A stretch of DNA of 39,304 bases. Origin: a virus. Under the pieces are notes generated by a model. It did not search any database and had not been told where the DNA came from. It was given only the letters and a program-made list of their open reading frames with translations. Below are positions 13,836 to 39,304 of the stretch, piece after piece. The stretch lies in the IMG/VR virus record IMGVR_UViG_3300005253_000035, positions 1 to 39,304 of that record; one strand, written 5' to 3'. Position numbers and translations under genes: made by a program. Numbering within the stretch: position 1 is the stretch's first letter; each line of letters begins with the position of its first letter.

Positions 13836-13851
13836 ATAGTTTCCGGTTTGG

Positions 13852-13890
13852 CGGCTGACCTGATAGGGCGGTGGGTCAGCCGTTTTTTTT
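13852..13890 (+). terminator. Intrinsic terminator of the late operon
   Basis: CGGCTGACC (13852-13860) pairs perfectly over 9 bp with GGTCAGCCG (13874-13882), loop of 13 bases, followed at once by eight T (13883-13890). It is in the right place to end transcription of the structural and lysis block. Confidence 0.92.
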
Positions 13891-13901
13891 ATTTATTTTG
13901 C

Positions 13902-13930
13902 TTGCTTTTCTGGTTCAATCCTTTTATAAT
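13902..13930 (+). promoter_or_regulatory. Promoter P1 (sigma70-like)
   Basis: TTGCTT at 13902-13907, 17-base spacer, TATAAT at 13925-13930. A start near 13937 would give a leader that contains a strong hairpin before the next gene. The same -35 TTGCTT occurs in two other intergenic promoters (14581 and 17434), which supports all three. Confidence 0.75.
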
Positions 13931-13974
13931 ACTATTGATATTTTCATTATGGGAATTTCTGTAAATTGACAATT

Positions 13975-14036
13975 TGCCCTGTTTGGTTTCTCACCTTACC
14001 CAGCGTGAAAATATCAGCCAAGCAGGGCATTTTTTT
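13975..14036 (+). terminator. Leader terminator / attenuator downstream of P1
   Basis: Bases 13975-13988 pair with 14016-14029 in a 14-bp helix (two G-U pairs) around a 27-base loop, and seven T (14030-14036) follow directly. It is terminator-like and 13 bases upstream of the next start codon. RNA from P1 would end after about 100 nt unless read through, so this is either an attenuator for the endonuclease gene or the end of a small RNA. Confidence 0.7.
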
Positions 14037-14048
14037 AGGAATAATATA

Positions 14049-14504
14049 ATGCAGAAAAGATGCCGTAAATGCAAACGAGTAAAGTCGATTACAGAATTTG
14101 AATACTTTTCGAGTCGTTTTTGTAATAAATGTGAGGTAGTTAAGCCTCTAAGGGTAAAAAAATTTATAGAAAAAACAAGAAAGGCAAGGAGAAAAAAAAT
14201 AATCGAACCCTTAGACGAACAAGGCAGCAAATGGAAAACCTTTAAGTCTGCCGAACAATTCAAAAAATCTATGCCGATGGCAGCAGGCTGTTATATAATA
14301 TATTCTCATAATAAAATATCTTATATAGGTTCAACTATTAATCTTAGAACCAGAATAAATATGCATATTAAAATAACAGATATGGATAAACGCTATTTTG
14401 TAAAAGTTAGACTCTCCGAAAAATATGGGGATTGGGCTATGCGGGAAATAAGGCTTTTACGCCGATTAAAACCAAAAGATAATACAAAAATATATGAATC
14501 ATAA
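14049..14504 (+). CDS. GIY-YIG endonuclease with N-terminal zinc ribbon
   Basis: 151 residues from ATG 14049, with AGGA upstream; the reading frame is open further upstream but runs through the leader hairpin. Residues 5-28 hold CRKC and CNKC, a zinc ribbon. A basic linker follows, then the GIY-YIG domain from about residue 80: GCYIIYS, ISYIGSTINLRTRI with the expected Tyr, Gly and catalytic Arg (R100). GIY-YIG proteins cleave DNA and are often selfish homing enzymes. It is free-standing, AT-rich, and may be mobile. Confidence 0.82.
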   Translation: MQKRCRKCKRVKSITEFEYFSSRFCNKCEVVKPLRVKKFIEKTRKARRKKIIEPLDEQGSKWKTFKSAEQFKKSMPMAAGCYIIYSHNKISYIGSTINLRTRINMHIKITDMDKRYFVKVRLSEKYGDWAMREIRLLRRLKPKDNTKIYES

Positions 14505-17236: not shown

Positions 17237-17424
17237 AACTCAATAAAAAAGGTCTTATACAATCGACATTCCACGTAACGCCAGATGAGTACCGGCTAAT
17301 CCGCAAGGCTCACAGCATCGCCGGTAACAGGCCGACTTACGACCGTTGGCTGCTTAGATGGTGCGGTAAGATTGTCGTAAATTACTGTAAACGCTTGGTT
17401 TATGAAAATACAAAAAAAACCTGA
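17233..17424 (+). CDS. Small basic protein, possible DNA-binding regulator
   Basis: 63 residues, very basic, with a strand-helix-helix look (LIQSTFHVTPDEYRLIRKA). This could be a ribbon-helix-helix type fold, though the match is loose. It is the last gene before promoter P3, and its 3' end abuts the promoter. Confidence 0.55.
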   Translation: MKLNKKGLIQSTFHVTPDEYRLIRKAHSIAGNRPTYDRWLLRWCGKIVVNYCKRLVYENTKKT

Positions 17425-17433
17425 AAATACATT

Positions 17434-17461
17434 TTGCTTTCCGGTAGATATGGTGTATACT
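17434..17461 (+). promoter_or_regulatory. Promoter P3 of the structured RNA
   Basis: TTGCTT at 17434-17439, 16-base spacer, TATACT at 17456-17461, then TTAA. Spacing and both hexamers are identical to P2, and both are followed by a T/A-rich start region. The expected start (17467-17469) falls exactly at the foot of the first helix of the RNA. Confidence 0.82.
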
Positions 17462-17467
17462 TTAAGT

Positions 17468-17640
17468 ATGGTTGGATGCTGGTATAATCTGTTTATAAAG
17501 CCTCTCGTAAACATCGCTTTTTGCCTTTGTCCCACAACGCCATCAAGCCGGTGTCCAACCAACGGGAGGCTTTGGAATTATAGCTTTTCTTTACCCTCCT
17601 CCGAAGTCAGAGTGCTAGCACGGGCTCTGGCTTTTTTTTT
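17468..17640 (+). ncRNA. Putative novel structured RNA with interleaved helices
   Basis: About 173 nt between promoter P3 and an intrinsic terminator, with no convincing coding frame. Helix S1: 17470-17482 with 17548-17560, all 13 positions pair (three G-U), plus a possible 17469-17561 pair. Helix S2: 17497-17508 with 17562-17573, all 12 pair (one G-U). S2's 5' strand is inside the S1 loop and its 3' strand outside, so they form a pseudoknot or two alternative states. A single-stranded linker (17574-17604) carries CCCTCCTCC, including the anti-Shine-Dalgarno core. Role unknown: SD-targeting small RNA, sponge, antitermination RNA or switch are possible. Confidence 0.8.
17605..17640 (+). terminator. 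Intrinsic terminator of the structured RNA
   Basis: AGTCAGAG (17605-17612) pairs with CTCTGGCT (17625-17632) over 8 bp with one G-U; the 12-base loop contains the palindrome GTGCTAGCAC. A run of nine T (17632-17640) follows. Confidence 0.9.
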
Positions 17641-17802
17641 GAAAACTGAATATGGCTGGCGGTGGCGTGGAAGCCTAATAACTTAGATAAACTTAGCCGA
17701 CTACGAAACAGGAGTAACGGCACTGCGAAGGACTATTGCAGACCAACGGCCCGCCGGCCACCTTTGAAAACTATCCGCCATAAGGCGGGGAAAAGATAAA
17801 AA
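17641..17802 (+). other. Noncoding gap before the recombination genes
   Basis: No reading frame of useful length is found; stops are dense in all three forward frames. Minor features: a direct repeat AACTTAG twice near 17680-17696, GGCC-rich palindromic sequence near 17745, and a small hairpin CCGCC-ATAA-GGCGG (about 17776-17789) whose right arm carries the GGGG that could serve the next gene as ribosome binding site. I see no clear promoter here. Confidence 0.5.
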
Positions 17803-17958
17803 ATGAATACTTGCGAAAACCATACCACCTGTATTGTTGTTTATATAAGTAAAAACTGTCCTTTTTGTGAGGCTGAAGGAAACATTGAAACCTTAGAACA
17901 AGAAAATGCCGACTTAGAGCAGGAAGTTGGAGATTTACAACAGAGAATAACCGATTAA
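17803..17958 (+). CDS. Small zinc-knuckle/coiled-coil protein
   Basis: 51 residues. NCPFCEAEGNIETLEQEN shows a CxxC followed by a leucine-zipper-like helix (LEQEVGDLQQRI); an earlier pair of Cys (CENHTTC) could complete a zinc site. This layout is common in tiny phage proteins. The gene precedes the recombination pair by 31 bases. Confidence 0.65.
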   Translation: MNTCENHTTCIVVYISKNCPFCEAEGNIETLEQENADLEQEVGDLQQRITD

Positions 17959-17989: not shown

Positions 17990-18940
17990 ATGACGGATGA
18001 ACAAATTGTGGAAGGGACGGACTTGTCCCCGCCGGAAACGGCGGAAACGGAAATGATGAGGCTGGAGGTTGAGGCCAACCCCGAAGTCCGGCTGGCTATG
18101 TTCGAGAAGCTGGCCGAACTCGCACCAAGATTCGCACAGGCACAGAATACAATCCTTGCGGCAATGACTTATGCGGGCGATTGGCTTGAATTTAGCGGAA
18201 TGATGTGCCTGAAATCGGCGGCGGCGGAGCGGATAGCACGGCTGTTCCCATATAAGATTGAGGATGGTGTTGTCAGCCGCCGTGAGGAATTCACGGATGC
18301 TATCGGCAAGGGTTACAGAATAGTCTATGAGGGCTATGCAAGCTGTCAGGGGCGGCGTGTGTGGGCCATGGGCTGTTACAGCAGCCGTGAGGCATTCGTA
18401 GCCAGGAAGGGCGGCGAATGGAAGGCTGACGAGGAAATCAACGAGAACAACATCAGGCGGGCGGCCTATCACTACTTCATCGGCAACTGCTTGAAATCGC
18501 TGTTTGGTTTGCGTGCCATTCCTGTCGAGGAATGGGAAAAGGTTATGGCTAAGACCGGCAGGCCGGATGCCAAGACAGGCAAGGTGCCATTCAAATCCGG
18601 CACAAAAGGTGGGACATCAACAGACGATTCTGCGAAGCAAGCCGAGCTATGCACAGCGTGCCAAACAATCGTCAACGCCGGATTCGGAGTGGAACATCAC
18701 GAAGGCAAAGTAAAACTGATGCAGTTATCGGACGATGATTTCGAAAAAGTCAGTACCGGCAAATCCATCGATATAGCCCGAAAAGTTTGTATCGGTTTAT
18801 CGGCCTTTCCCGACAAGAAGGACAAGACTAAAATGGTTGCGGGATTGTCAGCAGACCAGTTAAAGGGCAAGCGACTTGAGATTTCATTGGCCACAGCGAA
18901 GAAACTGGCGGATAAGGCGGTGCAAGATGCAAACACCTGA
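17990..18940 (+). CDS. Putative ssDNA-annealing/recombination protein
   Basis: 316 residues. The N-terminal half contains FEKLAELAPRFAQAQNTILA, FSGMMCLKSAAAERIARLFP, GYRIVYEGYASCQGRRVWAMG and ENNIRRAAYHYFIGNCLKSLFGL. The strand-rich middle followed by a helical AAYHYFIGN segment resembles phage single-strand annealing proteins in outline. The gene overlaps by 14 bases a Cas4/RecB-type exonuclease gene, the usual partner of such proteins. The C-terminal third (from about 230) has a CTAC pair and is unassigned. Function is inferred mainly from the neighbour. Confidence 0.5.
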   Translation: MTDEQIVEGTDLSPPETAETEMMRLEVEANPEVRLAMFEKLAELAPRFAQAQNTILAAMTYAGDWLEFSGMMCLKSAAAERIARLFPYKIEDGVVSRREEFTDAIGKGYRIVYEGYASCQGRRVWAMGCYSSREAFVARKGGEWKADEEINENNIRRAAYHYFIGNCLKSLFGLRAIPVEEWEKVMAKTGRPDAKTGKVPFKSGTKGGTSTDDSAKQAELCTACQTIVNAGFGVEHHEGKVKLMQLSDDDFEKVSTGKSIDIARKVCIGLSAFPDKKDKTKMVAGLSADQLKGKRLEISLATAKKLADKAVQDANT

Positions 18941-19905: not shown

Positions 19906-19991
19906 GGCAGCACAGGGGCTATGGATGGCAGCCGTGATACCGTAGGCGATAGGCTAATTAAGTTCTTCAGGGATGGCTGCCCTGTGCTGTC
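19906..19991 (+). other. Two-tier inverted repeat before the replication gene
   Basis: Bases 19906-19915 pair with 19982-19991 (10 bp, one G-U) and 19927-19933 pair with 19975-19981 (7 bp, perfect). The two helices abut on the 3' side and are separated by an 11-base bulge on the 5' side; the apical loop is 41 bases. A small hairpin CCGC-CT-GCGG follows at 19991-20000, next to the GGAG of the replication gene. A 38-codon frame (19900-20016) also crosses it. Either a regulatory RNA fold or a replication-related site. Confidence 0.65.
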
Positions 19992-20008
19992 CGCCTGCGG
20001 AGATATGA

Positions 20009-20797
20009 ATGACTGAAAATCAACCGACTTATGTGAGTTTTCAACCGGCAGCGGCATTGACGGATATGTATGTAGCCAGTATGGACGACCGGCAATATCG
20101 AGCATATTGGCAATTAGTTTTCTTCCTGTATTGCAATAACGGGTGGATTGAGTTTGATTATGAGGTACTTGCGGAAGTATGTCATTGTTCCACCGTCCTT
20201 GAATTTAATGAAAAAGTATGGCCGAAGATTAAGCGTAAATTTCAAGTGCAGGGTTTAACAACAATTCGGGCTAAACATTTATGCGGCAAAATAAACAGTC
20301 GCCCTACCCCTCGGACTCGCTTCGTAACACATTCGAGGGTAACTAAGGAATTATTGAGGGCACAAAAATCGATGCAAGATAAGCGTAGAGCGGGAGTTAT
20401 GAGTGGGAAAGTTCGCCGAACACTATTCAAACAGCGTTGCGAACAAACGCCAACGGCGTTGCAACAAAGTGAAGTAACGAAAAGGAAAGCGAAGATAAGA
20501 GATTCTTCGAATTCGAAAGAGCCTAAACTCTCCGTTTCCGACTTCGCTTCGTGGCGACTTAAATTTATACCAACACTTGAAGATATAATTAAAGTCCATA
20601 CAAAATCTGACCGTTCAGCGTTTGTAAACTTAACAAACTGGTTGATAGAAGAAATTGTGCAAGAACGCTTTACAATAAAGATTTTTGAACGGGTTTTAGG
20701 ACACGCTGAAGCTTCAAAAAAACACGGCATTAAACCAGTGGCATATTTTTTCAGTACGTTGCGTAGAGAAATAGGCTATCAAAGGAAACTAAAATGA
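20009..20797 (+). CDS. DUF1376-type replication protein
   Basis: 262 residues. The N-terminus (YVSFQPAAALTDMYVAS, DRQYRAYWQLVFFLYCNNGW, IEFDYEVLAEVCHC, VWPKIKRKF) is a DUF1376 domain, found in phage replication initiators and helicase-loader-like proteins. A basic linker follows, then a helical C-terminal region (FVNLTNWLIEEIVQERFTI, KPVAYFFSTLRREI) like the DnaT/DnaD-type tails of those proteins. It would open the origin or recruit a host helicase. GGAG lies 6 bases before the ATG. It overlaps the lysin start by ATGA. Confidence 0.8.
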   Translation: MTENQPTYVSFQPAAALTDMYVASMDDRQYRAYWQLVFFLYCNNGWIEFDYEVLAEVCHCSTVLEFNEKVWPKIKRKFQVQGLTTIRAKHLCGKINSRPTPRTRFVTHSRVTKELLRAQKSMQDKRRAGVMSGKVRRTLFKQRCEQTPTALQQSEVTKRKAKIRDSSNSKEPKLSVSDFASWRLKFIPTLEDIIKVHTKSDRSAFVNLTNWLIEEIVQERFTIKIFERVLGHAEASKKHGIKPVAYFFSTLRREIGYQRKLK

Positions 20798-23288: not shown

Positions 23289-23464
23289 ACCGCAAAAGAC
23301 CCATACGAATACCGCCTAAATACAGGATACCTTCTGCTCTAATCTTGAAGGTGATAGAGAGATTATGGAATTTGCCGGATATAGAGCGAAACCCTGCTGT
23401 CAATGACAGGATTAAGCAGGAATGTAAATTTGAGCTGGAAAATTGGAGGCCAGAATGCAAGTAG
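23285..23464 (+). CDS. Small basic protein (hypothetical)
   Basis: 59 residues, starting MNRKRPIRIPPKYRIPSALI. The ATG is fixed by an ATGA overlap with the upstream gene. A basic Pro-rich start is followed by helix (ERLWNLPDI). No family recognised. Confidence 0.6.
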   Translation: MNRKRPIRIPPKYRIPSALILKVIERLWNLPDIERNPAVNDRIKQECKFELENWRPECK

Positions 23465-24912
23465 ACATTGACGTGGAGAAAATGAGAGAGCTGCTGGAAC
23501 GAGGCAAGGATATTACAGAAACTTTTGAACAAGAACAAAACGACCCAATAACTATAGTAGTCAATGCCGAAGCCCTGCAAGGAATTTTGATTGGAGCCCT
23601 TGCCCTGCTCCTAAAGTCCTGCTCTGTGTGCAGAGGAAGTAAAAGGGTTTGGTGGAACAAAACCGATAAGAAGGTAATAAGTATTGCTGAGGCCTGTCAG
23701 ATGCCCGATGATGCAGTTGAGTACATTCCCTGCCCCGCCTGCGGGACAAAAGAGATATCACTGACAAAGGGTTATAAAGTACTGGTTGATGCCGAGGATT
23801 ACGAACGGGTAAACGAGTTCAAATGGCGTGCGATTGTAAATGCTGGGGTTGCTCACACTGTTTGTATGAGCCAAACCAAAGGCGAACAGACGCATATAAA
23901 AATGCACCGTTTTATTCTCAATGCTCCTGATGGGATGTTTGTTGACCATATAAACTATAATTGCCTTGATAATAGAAAGGCTAATTTAAGGCTTTGTACT
24001 CCACAAGAAAGCTCTTTTCATCGCAGAGGAATTTCAGGCCGTAGTTCAGAATACAAAGGTGTCTGTTGGGCAAAAAGAGAAAAAAAGTGGGAAGCCTGTA
24101 TAAAACATAATAATAAGAAAATTTTCATTGGACAATACGATGACGAAAAAGAAGCAGCCAGAGCATATGATATTAAAGCAAAAGAATTATTTGGTAAGTT
24201 TGTACATCTAAATTTCCCAGCCTGCTCTGTGTGTAAGAGATGTGGTGGGGTAAATGGCAAGCACAAACAAGTAGACGACCCAATGGCAGGCGATTCACAT
24301 ATGCTAACGAAGATGCAATGCCCGTTTGACGAGTCCTGCCCTGAGCCACTTATTTGCAAAAGATGTGGTAAAACATTTCCTGCCTTTATGCAGGAAGAAT
24401 ACCGAGGGCACGAAGATAATTGTAGGACTACACCAACCTGCTCCGGCGATAAACTGCACACCTGCGGCGACCTGTCGAAAACCTGCACCCTGCTCGAAAA
24501 AGCAAACCAAGTCCCTGCTGGCGAGGTAGAGGAGCTTGTGAAAGAACTGAGGAATAGAATAAAAAATCCTAATTCATACATTGACCATTGGCATTCTAAA
24601 AGAGATGAGTTGACGTTGCAAGTCCTTGACCATCTCACCGCCCAAGCCAAGCAAATCGAGAGGCAAGTTAATATAATAAAAGATTTAGATGCTGATATAG
24701 CGAAAGGATATAGTGAAGCGATAGACAATATGTTATTACCACTCCAAGCCAAAATCAAGCAGCTTGAGGCAGAGAATAAGCGGTTAACAACCCTTGAAAA
24801 GATGTGCCAAGCCATTGTTGTATATAACAAGAATCGCCACTCTGATAGTGAACAGTTTCGGATTCGGCGGGATATGTTTTTGAAAATCAGGCAAGCCCTG
24901 AAAGGAGAATGA
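23455..24912 (+). CDS. Zinc-ribbon/coiled-coil protein with embedded HNH-AP2 homing endonuclease
   Basis: 485 residues from ATG 23455 (GGAGG just upstream). Residues 1-98 are a phage protein with CSVCRGSKRVWW and CPACG zinc pairs. Residues 99-255 are a full homing endonuclease: KEISLTKGYKVLVD, the HNH core HRFILNAPDGMFVDHINYN and CLDNRKANLRLC, then an AP2 DNA-binding domain (SEYKGVCWAKREKKWEACI, EAARAYDIKAKELFG, HLNFP). Residues 256-485 resume with CSVCKRCGG, CKRCGKTFPAF, CSGDKLHTCGD and a coiled coil (LQAKIKQLEAENKRLTTLEK). The nuclease has no start or stop of its own. Confidence 0.8.
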   Translation: MQVDIDVEKMRELLERGKDITETFEQEQNDPITIVVNAEALQGILIGALALLLKSCSVCRGSKRVWWNKTDKKVISIAEACQMPDDAVEYIPCPACGTKEISLTKGYKVLVDAEDYERVNEFKWRAIVNAGVAHTVCMSQTKGEQTHIKMHRFILNAPDGMFVDHINYNCLDNRKANLRLCTPQESSFHRRGISGRSSEYKGVCWAKREKKWEACIKHNNKKIFIGQYDDEKEAARAYDIKAKELFGKFVHLNFPACSVCKRCGGVNGKHKQVDDPMAGDSHMLTKMQCPFDESCPEPLICKRCGKTFPAFMQEEYRGHEDNCRTTPTCSGDKLHTCGDLSKTCTLLEKANQVPAGEVEELVKELRNRIKNPNSYIDHWHSKRDELTLQVLDHLTAQAKQIERQVNIIKDLDADIAKGYSEAIDNMLLPLQAKIKQLEAENKRLTTLEKMCQAIVVYNKNRHSDSEQFRIRRDMFLKIRQALKGE

Positions 24913-36964: not shown

Positions 36965-37459
36965 ATGAGTTTGAAAGATGCACATTTTCATCAAGTTTTA
37001 ACTGTTGACGGCACTACGGCGGGAACGCCTCTGGCCGACCAGTTCGATAGTGGCATCGATTCCGATATAGTCAGTATGGCGAAATACAACAAGTGCTACT
37101 TCTTTCTGTATTGGGGAGTTGGTGCTACCGGAACGCTGACCTTGACAGTTATACCCTGCGATGATGCCACGCCGACTAATACCACGACTGCTATTTCGTT
37201 CCGGTACAAGATAGTCACTGCACCCGATACGAACGCAGCATGGGCGACCTCTGCCTCTTTAATAACGACTGCCGGTTCTTCGCAGATATACGTTATCGAA
37301 GTTAGCGGCGAGGATTTGCCGCTGGTTAGTGGTGTTAAATACGAATATGTGAAGCTGAATATCGCTGAAACGGACAATGTTCCTAAAATCGGTGGTGTCA
37401 TAATCATTATGGACGAGCCGAGATACGCAGAGGATACGACCGATTTGGTGACGGCTTAG
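36965..37459 (+). CDS. Capsid-associated structural protein
   Basis: 164 residues, MSLKDAHFHQVLTVDGTTAG. All beta, with TGTLTLTVIPCDDATPTNT and a final VGGVIIIMDEPRYAED-type end. Directly after the capsid gene and preceded by AAGGAG. A decoration or stabilising protein by position. Confidence 0.6.
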   Translation: MSLKDAHFHQVLTVDGTTAGTPLADQFDSGIDSDIVSMAKYNKCYFFLYWGVGATGTLTLTVIPCDDATPTNTTTAISFRYKIVTAPDTNAAWATSASLITTAGSSQIYVIEVSGEDLPLVSGVKYEYVKLNIAETDNVPKIGGVIIIMDEPRYAEDTTDLVTA

Positions 37460-37464
37460 TTGTT

Positions 37465-37485
37465 ATGAGACTTTTTCTCATTTTT
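37465..37485 (+). terminator. Weak intrinsic terminator in the head operon
   Basis: ATGAGA (37465-37470), loop CTTTT, TCTCAT (37476-37481), then a T-rich tract. A 6-bp AT-rich stem is weak, so this may reduce rather than stop transcription of downstream genes. Confidence 0.55.
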
Positions 37486-37494
37486 ATTCTTCTC

Positions 37495-37525
37495 CGACTG
37501 GGGTTTGAGTGCACGGCCTCAGTCG
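37495..37525 (+). other. Intergenic hairpin with palindromic loop
   Basis: CGACTGGGG (37495-37503) pairs with CCTCAGTCG (37517-37525) over 9 bp with one G-U. The 13-base loop contains GTGCAC, a self-complementary hexamer that could form a kissing dimer. Directly before the RBS region of the next gene; no T-run. Confidence 0.65.
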
Positions 37526-37567
37526 AAGGAGGATTATCCAATATAAACTTTCAGAAAGGAGTTTATT

Positions 37568-38320
37568 ATGTCTATTAAAGCATTTTGGAAACACAGAGTC
37601 CTAAACTTTTTCGACCCTATCAACAATCCGGAATTCAAGATTGGTCTGTGGGCTAACTGTCCGGTCTTGGCGATACAAGCCGACCCAAGCATCGCAACCG
37701 TTTTGCTTGATGATTTTTTTACCTTCGATACAACAAAGTGGGCAAGGACGGTTTATCCTGCCGGTGCCCCAGGTGGAACGGTAGGGATAGCCGATGCGGT
37801 TGAAGGCATTTACAATACTTACTGCGATGGCGATGATAATGACGAGGCTTACGTAGTGTCAGAAGGGCAGAGTTGGCTGATGGCGACCGGCAAGCCGCTA
37901 TGGTTCGAGGCGAAGTTTACGTTTACAAACTCGGCTACAACCGCAGGCGTTTTCTGTGTAGGTATAACGGATACAGAAGAAAATATGATGTTGGATGACG
38001 AAGGTGGCCCTGCGGCGTCTTATGACGGATTCGTCTTTTATAAAGAATCGGGCGATGCCAATTTGAACTTTGAGACTTCTTTGGCGGGTGCTCAAGTCGA
38101 GAACGCTACGCTAAATGCCTTTACGAGCGGAACGACTTATCGGCTCGGCATTTATTACGATGGCGTAACTACCATCACACCTTACGTTGACGATGTGGCG
38201 AAAACCGCTCACACGATGGCGACAAATACCAGCGAAGGTTCTATAATCTTTGGTACAAAGTCGAATGGTGCAGAGGAATTTATCGCTATGAATTACATCA
38301 AGGTTGTTCAAATGAGATAA
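37568..38320 (+). CDS. Lectin-like capsid surface protein
   Basis: 250 residues. From about residue 45 the chain reads as a concanavalin-A-like jelly roll: LLDDFFTFDTTKWARTVYP, WFEAKFTFTNSATTAGVFCVG, GTTYRLGIYYDGVTTITPYV. Such domains are found in phage head decorations and fibres and often bind sugars. The first 40 residues look like a virion anchor. No catalytic residues are evident. Confidence 0.7.
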   Translation: MSIKAFWKHRVLNFFDPINNPEFKIGLWANCPVLAIQADPSIATVLLDDFFTFDTTKWARTVYPAGAPGGTVGIADAVEGIYNTYCDGDDNDEAYVVSEGQSWLMATGKPLWFEAKFTFTNSATTAGVFCVGITDTEENMMLDDEGGPAASYDGFVFYKESGDANLNFETSLAGAQVENATLNAFTSGTTYRLGIYYDGVTTITPYVDDVAKTAHTMATNTSEGSIIFGTKSNGAEEFIAMNYIKVVQMR

Positions 38321-38326
38321 TGTTAA

Positions 38327-38355
38327 GGGCGGGCTTAACCGTCCGCCCATTTTTT
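38327..38355 (+). terminator. Intrinsic terminator with alternative hairpin
   Basis: GGGCGGGC (38327-38334) pairs with GTCCGCCC (38341-38348) over 8 bp, loop TTAACC, then T6 (38350-38355). An overlapping alternative hairpin GTTAAG (38322-38327) with CTTAAC (38334-38339) would exclude it. It lies between two structural genes, so partial termination or a switch is possible. Confidence 0.7.
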
Positions 38356-38368
38356 AAGGAGCAAAATA

Positions 38369-38929
38369 ATGTATCAATCAGTTTATTTGAATGATGGAAC
38401 CGGCTCTGGCGGCTATGCTGCAAAGGTCAATGCTGATAACGAGTTGCTGGTATCTACGGCGGCCGAGGCATTAAGGGCTAATGCCGCTGGCAATGCTTAT
38501 TGTGCCTTAGCCGATGTAACTTCAGCCACAACCGATGACGATTTCTTTTATATCTTGAATAATGATGCGAGAGATTTGGTAATCTTCAAGATACAAGGCT
38601 GGTGCGATGATGCCAGTCAAGAGATAAGTATTCTCATCGGTGCTACGGATGGAGGAACAGGTGCTGGCGATACTATCACTCCGGCCAACCTAAATGCCGG
38701 AAGCAGCAACTTGGCAGATGTAATTTGCGTTTCTGATGCGACAGATTTGGCCATTACTGGCGGAACAGCGATTGATTTGCTGAAATTCCACGCTACTGTA
38801 TTACTACTTGGTTCGTGGGATTATCCATCTGGGATAATTATACCAAACGGCAGAAGGTTACATATGGCGGCGGCTTTGGCAGGTCTTATCAACCTGAATG
38901 TCTTTTTCTATTTCAGGCGTGTCAGCTAA
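38369..38929 (+). CDS. Capsid/fibre structural protein (hypothetical)
   Basis: 186 residues, MYQSVYLNDGTGSGGYAAKV. Small residues and short strands predominate (DATDLAITGGTAIDLLKF, SGIIIPNGRRLHMAAALAG). The start motif (YLNDGTGSG-AKV-ADN-L) is common among small virion proteins upstream of fibre genes. No enzyme motif. AAGGAG precedes the ATG. Confidence 0.6.
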   Translation: MYQSVYLNDGTGSGGYAAKVNADNELLVSTAAEALRANAAGNAYCALADVTSATTDDDFFYILNNDARDLVIFKIQGWCDDASQEISILIGATDGGTGAGDTITPANLNAGSSNLADVICVSDATDLAITGGTAIDLLKFHATVLLLGSWDYPSGIIIPNGRRLHMAAALAGLINLNVFFYFRRVS

Positions 38930-38952
38930 GTCGTAAAAGATTATTCGTTTAG

Positions 38953-38978
38953 CGTGGGGGCTATGCGGCCTCCACGCC
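38953..38978 (+). other. Strong hairpin before the tail fibre gene
   Basis: GCGTGGGGGC (38953-38962) pairs with GCCTCCACGC (38969-38978): 10 bp with one G-U, 6-base loop. No T-run follows. It sits 20 bases before the fibre start and may protect or process the mRNA, or pause transcription. Confidence 0.7.
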
Positions 38979-38997
38979 GGACGATTGAGGACAAGTT

Positions 38998-39304
38998 ATG
39001 AGAAAGTATCTTGTTATCGTAATTATTCTATGCTGTTTTTTATCAGCATACGGGCAGTTCGTCCCCTTTTCGCCACAGCAGTTTAACGATGAGACTTGGC
39101 GTGTTTTCGATAATGGCGACCCCACTAAAAGGGTGGAATTTGAATTGTCTGGCCTGACTACAAGCACTACCCGCACGCTGACCATTCCGGATGCAAGTGG
39201 CACTATTGCGTTGACGTCTGACCTTACTACTGGTTACGTACCTTATACTGGTGCAAATGCTAACTTGAATATGGGAGTTTATTCTAGCCGCTTTGACGGC
39301 GGGG
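38998..39304 (+). CDS. Tail fibre / receptor-binding protein, N-terminal part with signal peptide
   Basis: First 102 codons of the 960-residue fibre that continues from base 1. The N-terminus MRKYLVIVIILCCFLSAYGQ is a classic Sec signal peptide: two basic residues, hydrophobic core, likely cut after AYG. Next comes RVFDNGDPTKRVEFELSG and TTRTLTIPDASGTIALT, the fibre start motif. The frame is the same on both sides of the join, which confirms the circle. Signal peptides are not expected on tail fibres that assemble in the cytoplasm. Confidence 0.85.
   Translation, partial: MRKYLVIVIILCCFLSAYGQFVPFSPQQFNDETWRVFDNGDPTKRVEFELSGLTTSTTRTLTIPDASGTIALTSDLTTGYVPYTGANANLNMGVYSSRFDGG
39184..39304. repeat. 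Right copy of 121-bp terminal direct repeat
   Basis: Identical to the first 121 bases. It lies wholly inside the tail fibre gene. See the left copy for interpretation. Confidence 0.95.

Follow-up and report, generated by a model that had tools for sequence, protein, structure and literature searches.

An interval at the head of the early genes of an uncultured phage (17434-17640) may, at close to an even chance, act in cis as a two-state transcription attenuator, forming the promoter-proximal leader of the main early operon. The stretch of DNA analysed, a 39,304-base IMG/VR virus record referred to here as the window, carries every gene on the plus strand. Terminase, portal and capsid genes lie from 30338 onward and more structural genes open the window, where a strong terminator (13850-13890) is placed 3' of their run; the early region spans 13.9 kb to roughly 30 kb. 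The focal interval is situated inside a 378-base gap between a gene ending at 17424 and a gene starting at 17803. Its promoter, its predicted terminator, the complementarity of its first strand (strand A) to this terminator, and its position in front of the early genes suggest such an attenuator.

The focal element starts with the promoter TTGCTT-N16-TATACT (17434-17461, plus strand; TTGCTT at 17434-17439, TATACT at 17456-17461), just as an earlier note made from the sequence alone had given it. The computed helices lie on the same strand in the interleaved order A-B-A'-B'. Helix 1 joins strand A (17469-17483) to strand A' (17547-17561) through 15 pairs (-28.0 kcal/mol), and helix 2 joins strand B (17496-17508) to strand B' (17562-17574) through 13 pairs (-23.7 kcal/mol); the interleaving agreed with the earlier note, whereas both helices turned out longer than the 13 and 12 pairs it had claimed. 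The predicted transcription start at about 17468 falls at the foot of helix 1, where it had been expected. Strand B' directly abuts A', i.e. the junction between the 3' strands is 0 nt, within the 0-1 nt first described. The predicted intrinsic terminator (17603-17640, plus strand), a strong one, ends in the nine T described before (17632-17640), which are overlapped by a stem that in the predicted fold has 11 pairs (17603-17613:17624-17634) rather than 8. H-type pseudoknots share the strand order A-B-A'-B'; in the classical form, however, 0-1 nt separate the 5' strand of the second helix from the 3' strand of the first, whereas this linker is 38 nt long in the focal RNA, the 0-nt junction is that between A' and B', and the helices exceed one turn. 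The earlier statement that the structure is not a classical H-type knot therefore holds.

Folded without the pseudoknot, the RNA of ~173 nt has a z-score of -3.4. In whole-window shuffles (n=200) the best interleaved helix pair averaged -35.8 kcal/mol and reached at most -49.9 kcal/mol, compared to the observed -51.7 kcal/mol, and none of 4000 local shuffles of 17425-17640 reached the observed pair (best -42.4 kcal/mol). These values and the rare promoter type support the view of a structured noncoding RNA that runs from promoter to terminator. A conserved protein in the same interval was looked for as well: the open reading frame 17402-17686, which spans both helices and the terminator, had no Pfam or PHROGs match, and this candidate was rejected.

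The transcribed region includes a perfect extended -10-like sequence, TGGTATAAT (17480-17488, plus strand), at about +13 to +21 of the focal RNA; four such sequences occur in the window, where 1.8 are expected. Speculatively, it could serve as a sigma-dependent pause or as a second promoter with its start at the 5' strand of helix 2; transcription from the latter would start at about the first base of this helix and yield an RNA limited to helix 2. Directly behind the terminator, a second strongly folded noncoding domain was observed (17653-17760; z-score -4.4, 10-pair closing stem, -25.1 kcal/mol), which lies between two copies of a perfect direct repeat of 10 bases, TTTGAAAACT (17638 and 17763). 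Neither Rfam nor sequence searches returned a match for this domain, and a search with its loop sequence gave chance matches only; it could form part of the leader when transcripts read through the terminator, or be an insertion.

The motif TTGCTT-N16/17-TATAMT is present at three sites in the window (13902, 14581 and 17434), all on the plus strand and in noncoding DNA, where 0.02 are expected, and these sites are very probably genuine phage promoters. Directly behind two of the three, an interleaved element begins. Downstream of the focal element, from 17640 to about 30 kb, consensus scans, which other promoter types escape, detected no strong sigma-70-like promoter in noncoding DNA on the plus strand; the lone site found on this strand (25507) is weak and lies within a coding region. 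A terminator scan placed no intrinsic terminator between 17640 and 30005. Because neither a strong promoter nor a terminator was found in this region, genes starting at 17803 and beyond would need polymerases that pass the 17640 terminator, and we infer that they depend on readthrough. The first two of these plus-strand genes encode 51 aa (17803-17958) and 316 aa (starting at 17990; unassigned), and a Cas4-like nuclease gene is located at 18927. The earlier note had taken the unit for a free-standing RNA gene, which is made less likely by its position at the head of a long run of early genes with no other strong promoter found. A comparable arrangement is known from the lambda PR' leader, or '6S' RNA, a constitutive short promoter-to-terminator RNA which ends at tR' before a long operon; lambda differs in its need for protein Q and a DNA site. 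In the late region, we observed the lowest folding z-scores of the window, at 37451-37600 (-5.5) and 38901-39100 (-4.7), and the terminator scan marked terminator-like hairpins at 37482 and at 38350.

Beyond what had been noted earlier, each of the strands A, A', B and B' was found to have a second partner in an alternative fold. In the predicted fold containing helix 1, a hairpin at 17490-17513 (17490-17496:17507-17513, plus strand) keeps strand B in its loop and a stem at 17564-17600 (17564-17569:17595-17600, plus strand) keeps B' paired. In the fold containing helix 2, A' is predicted to pair with 17511-17519 (plus strand), and the stretch 17470-17491, largely strand A, could act as an antiterminator by pairing with 17608-17626 (plus strand), which uses up the 5' arm and the loop of the terminator. 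This predicted pairing comprises 18 pairs (-19.9 kcal/mol) and was equalled by 9/1000 and 4/1000 shuffles, a significance that is only moderate, the pairing having been spotted by inspection and after the fact. With pseudoknot energies left out, the whole-RNA energies of the two alternative folds are -55.7 and -52.3 kcal/mol. In the growing transcript, the helix 1 and helix 2 folds differ by at most about 3.5 kcal/mol throughout: the helix 2 fold is favoured right after synthesis of B' and again when the transcript ends within 17620-17626 (-0.8 to -2.8 kcal/mol), whereas from 17629 onward helix 1 together with the terminator is favoured. These computed preferences follow the pattern expected of an attenuator. 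Shuffling of the linkers indicated that neither fold is unusually stabilised by them (89/300 and 46/300).

Under the attenuator model, pairing of A with A' would leave B confined to the loop of a hairpin and B' bound in a separate stem; the terminator would form and the ~173-nt RNA would be released. In the second state, B would pair with B' and A' would take another partner, and the freed strand A would bind the 5' arm of the terminator, allowing the polymerase to continue into 17803 and beyond. As all of helix 1 has been transcribed by the time helix 2 becomes possible, the default outcome at this leader, in which no trigger is visible, is probably termination; the choice of state might be made by a protein, by translation or by pausing. 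Computation supports the promoter and terminator, both helices with their alternative pairings, the closeness of the folds in energy and the recurrence of the layout, whereas mutual exclusion of the two states in practice, regulation of the readthrough and action in cis are inferred. The near-equal energies of the folds and the release of a strand for the terminator arm in the helix 2 fold favour the switch among the options left by the earlier note, which had allowed for either coexisting helices or two states of a switch. Like transcription attenuators, the focal RNA combines a 5' leader, an intrinsic terminator behind the promoter, near-equal folds, and a strand with an upstream or terminator-arm partner, here a predicted antiterminator that would use up the arm of the terminator in competition with the helix formed before it. 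It differs from known attenuators in the interleaving of its alternative helices, whose 3' strands abut, and in lacking a known ligand, tRNA, protein or leader-peptide signature as well as an Rfam match.

If both helices formed at once, the RNA could be a stable long-helix pseudoknot with another role, e.g. in protein binding, replication start or RNA protection. The 0-nt junction permits stacking and, in three of the four elements with this layout, the linker lengths allow both helices; in the focal RNA, however, the 12-nt linker would have to span ~78 A in a coaxial stack, which equals its maximal reach, so that the helices would need to fold back on each other. We regard a stable knot as quite improbable. 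By reasoning rather than measurement, we favour mutual exclusion of helices 1 and 2 over such a knot because the focal linker would be at full reach and an end held by the polymerase would have to be threaded.

The same architecture was found twice more in the window, a recurrence not included in the earlier note. One sister element (13902-14036, plus strand) starts with a perfect promoter, TTGCTT-N17-TATAAT, followed by helix 1 (13935-13947:14005-14017), helix 2 (13975-13988:14016-14029) and seven T at 14030; a GIY-YIG gene starts at 14049, 12 bases past this T run. The other (19906-20000, plus strand) has no promoter and consists of helix 1 (19906-19917:19980-19991) and helix 2 (19940-19948:19992-20000), the latter ending in the Shine-Dalgarno (SD) sequence (GGAG, 19999-20002) of the gene at 20009. 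Thus, three of the 12 noncoding gaps of at least 60 bases in the window, all three in the early region, contain the crossed layout, and no strong crossed layout was detected in the remaining nine. Homing-endonuclease-like genes were observed in this genome, namely the GIY-YIG gene (14049-14504) and, judged from its translation, an apparent HNH and AP2-type protein (23443-24912).

A scan of 83 sequences (1.38 Mb), comprising the window and its relatives, yielded one further clear promoter-bearing case in a distant relative phage, G019, whose portal protein is 34% identical. This element (L102:5884-5983) has helices of 12 and 15 pairs with a 0-nt junction, the promoter TTGACA-N17-TAAGAT before helix 1, and five T behind helix 2, followed by a gene. 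The element is contained in an open reading frame of 33 codons. This frame opens close to where transcription is predicted to start, and its stop shares bases with the start of the next gene (TTATGA), so that the element could be translated as a leader in coupling with that gene. G014, the closest longer relative, showed no crossed element in the stretch examined. Helices of 12-15 pairs with G-U pairs are common and at weak thresholds the real contigs gave 39 cases versus 40 in shuffles, as would be expected if such helices arose by chance in spacer DNA. Since the weak-threshold counts match the shuffles, the few strong cases are outliers and not the edge of a general trend, and chance is very improbable for them: for each of the four elements (focal, 13935-14036, 19906-20000 and that of G019), 0/4000 local shuffles reached the observed helix pair, three of them occur in one genome, and all are in noncoding gaps.

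The four elements have no alignable sequence in common; they support a common layout and not common descent. A gene follows each sister and the G019 element, and the second helix of each ends at a T run or an SD sequence, a recurrence that speaks for the attenuator. There, the terminator or the SD-covering hairpin is helix 2 itself, so that the permissive state would be that with helix 1. A given helix does not play one role throughout, and it counts against an attenuator in the focal interval that helix 2, the OFF hairpin in the sisters, would constitute the ON state here.

The complete promoter-RNA-terminator unit would also suit a free-standing trans-acting small RNA of ~173 nt, with helix 1 and the terminator guarding its ends and with loops that bind phage or host mRNAs. 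Its C-rich unpaired stretches, a CCUCUC loop and the CCCUCCUCC tail, could pair with SD sequences, and the linker 17509-17546 matches inside gene 24916 (-39.4 kcal/mol). However, this match, the best one to a phage target, came from one of several queries and was equalled by 1/60 shuffles, which makes it not significant, and the second complementarity of strand A is to the RNA's own terminator. Moreover, the promoterless sister at 19906, which ends in an SD sequence, points to action in cis, and the position of both sisters directly before a gene, one ending at its SD, further lowers the likelihood of a free-standing RNA gene. Altogether, we consider a trans-acting role rather unlikely.

Database searches disclosed no relative of the focal RNA. 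Rfam, riboswitches and C4 antisense RNA included, gave no match at gathering in the focal interval, in agreement with the earlier note, which knew of no named phage RNA of this form; the only sub-threshold match was manA-II on the opposite strand (15.9 bits versus a gathering threshold of 100). An HDV-like or other known ribozyme was rejected, no Rfam match being found in the interval at E up to 10, and the ARAGORN model detected no tRNA or tmRNA there. A defence or abortive-infection RNA was rejected too, as PADLOC gave no convincing partner gene but weak matches such as the Cas4-like one. At most chance-length matches were returned by blastn of the focal region against phages and plasmids, by an exact-pattern search of viral_contigs, and by DNA searches of the contigs from which 12 and 21 relative loci come; that no sequence homologue was found in these sets counts against the attenuator. 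Used as protein bait, the neighbouring genes retrieved distant methyltransferase relatives only, the portal protein distant relatives of the phage, and the G019 gene only itself.

A known parallel among phage early transcripts is HK022 putL, which lies just downstream of PL and comprises ~70 nt with two stem-loops; a -10-like sequence is present in all putL at positions +23 to +28 (PMC9378689). Like putRNA, the focal RNA is structured, stands where an early transcript begins, with a terminator behind it, and has a -10-like sequence (at about +16) in the transcribed region, so that it could be a folded 5' RNA, here a real pseudoknot, that rides RNA polymerase through terminators. However, putRNA is built of two separate, non-interleaved stem-loops with shared, conserved sequence (PMC9378689), whereas the focal helices are interleaved, the sisters have no shared sequence, and the focal RNA has no Rfam match. 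Furthermore, helices longer than one turn would require the 3' end to be threaded through a closed loop while held by the polymerase. An antiterminator of this kind is improbable.

The elements might represent an undescribed class of phage control elements that is set by topology and not by sequence, a generalisation that we offer tentatively and regard as doubtful. Its members would be RNAs that from promoter position +1 form two long interleaved helices with abutting 3' strands, gating a terminator or an SD sequence before early operons, their states being exclusive as the loop closed by one helix encircles a strand belonging to the other. In that case, a single uncultured phage would employ one crossed-helix layout three times for control without shared sequence, and such elements would be invisible to homology-based RNA searches. 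Phage gene control would gain a kind of switch defined by its topology, and the elements would allow a concrete test of mutual exclusion between interleaved helices that exceed one turn and have no nucleotides in common.
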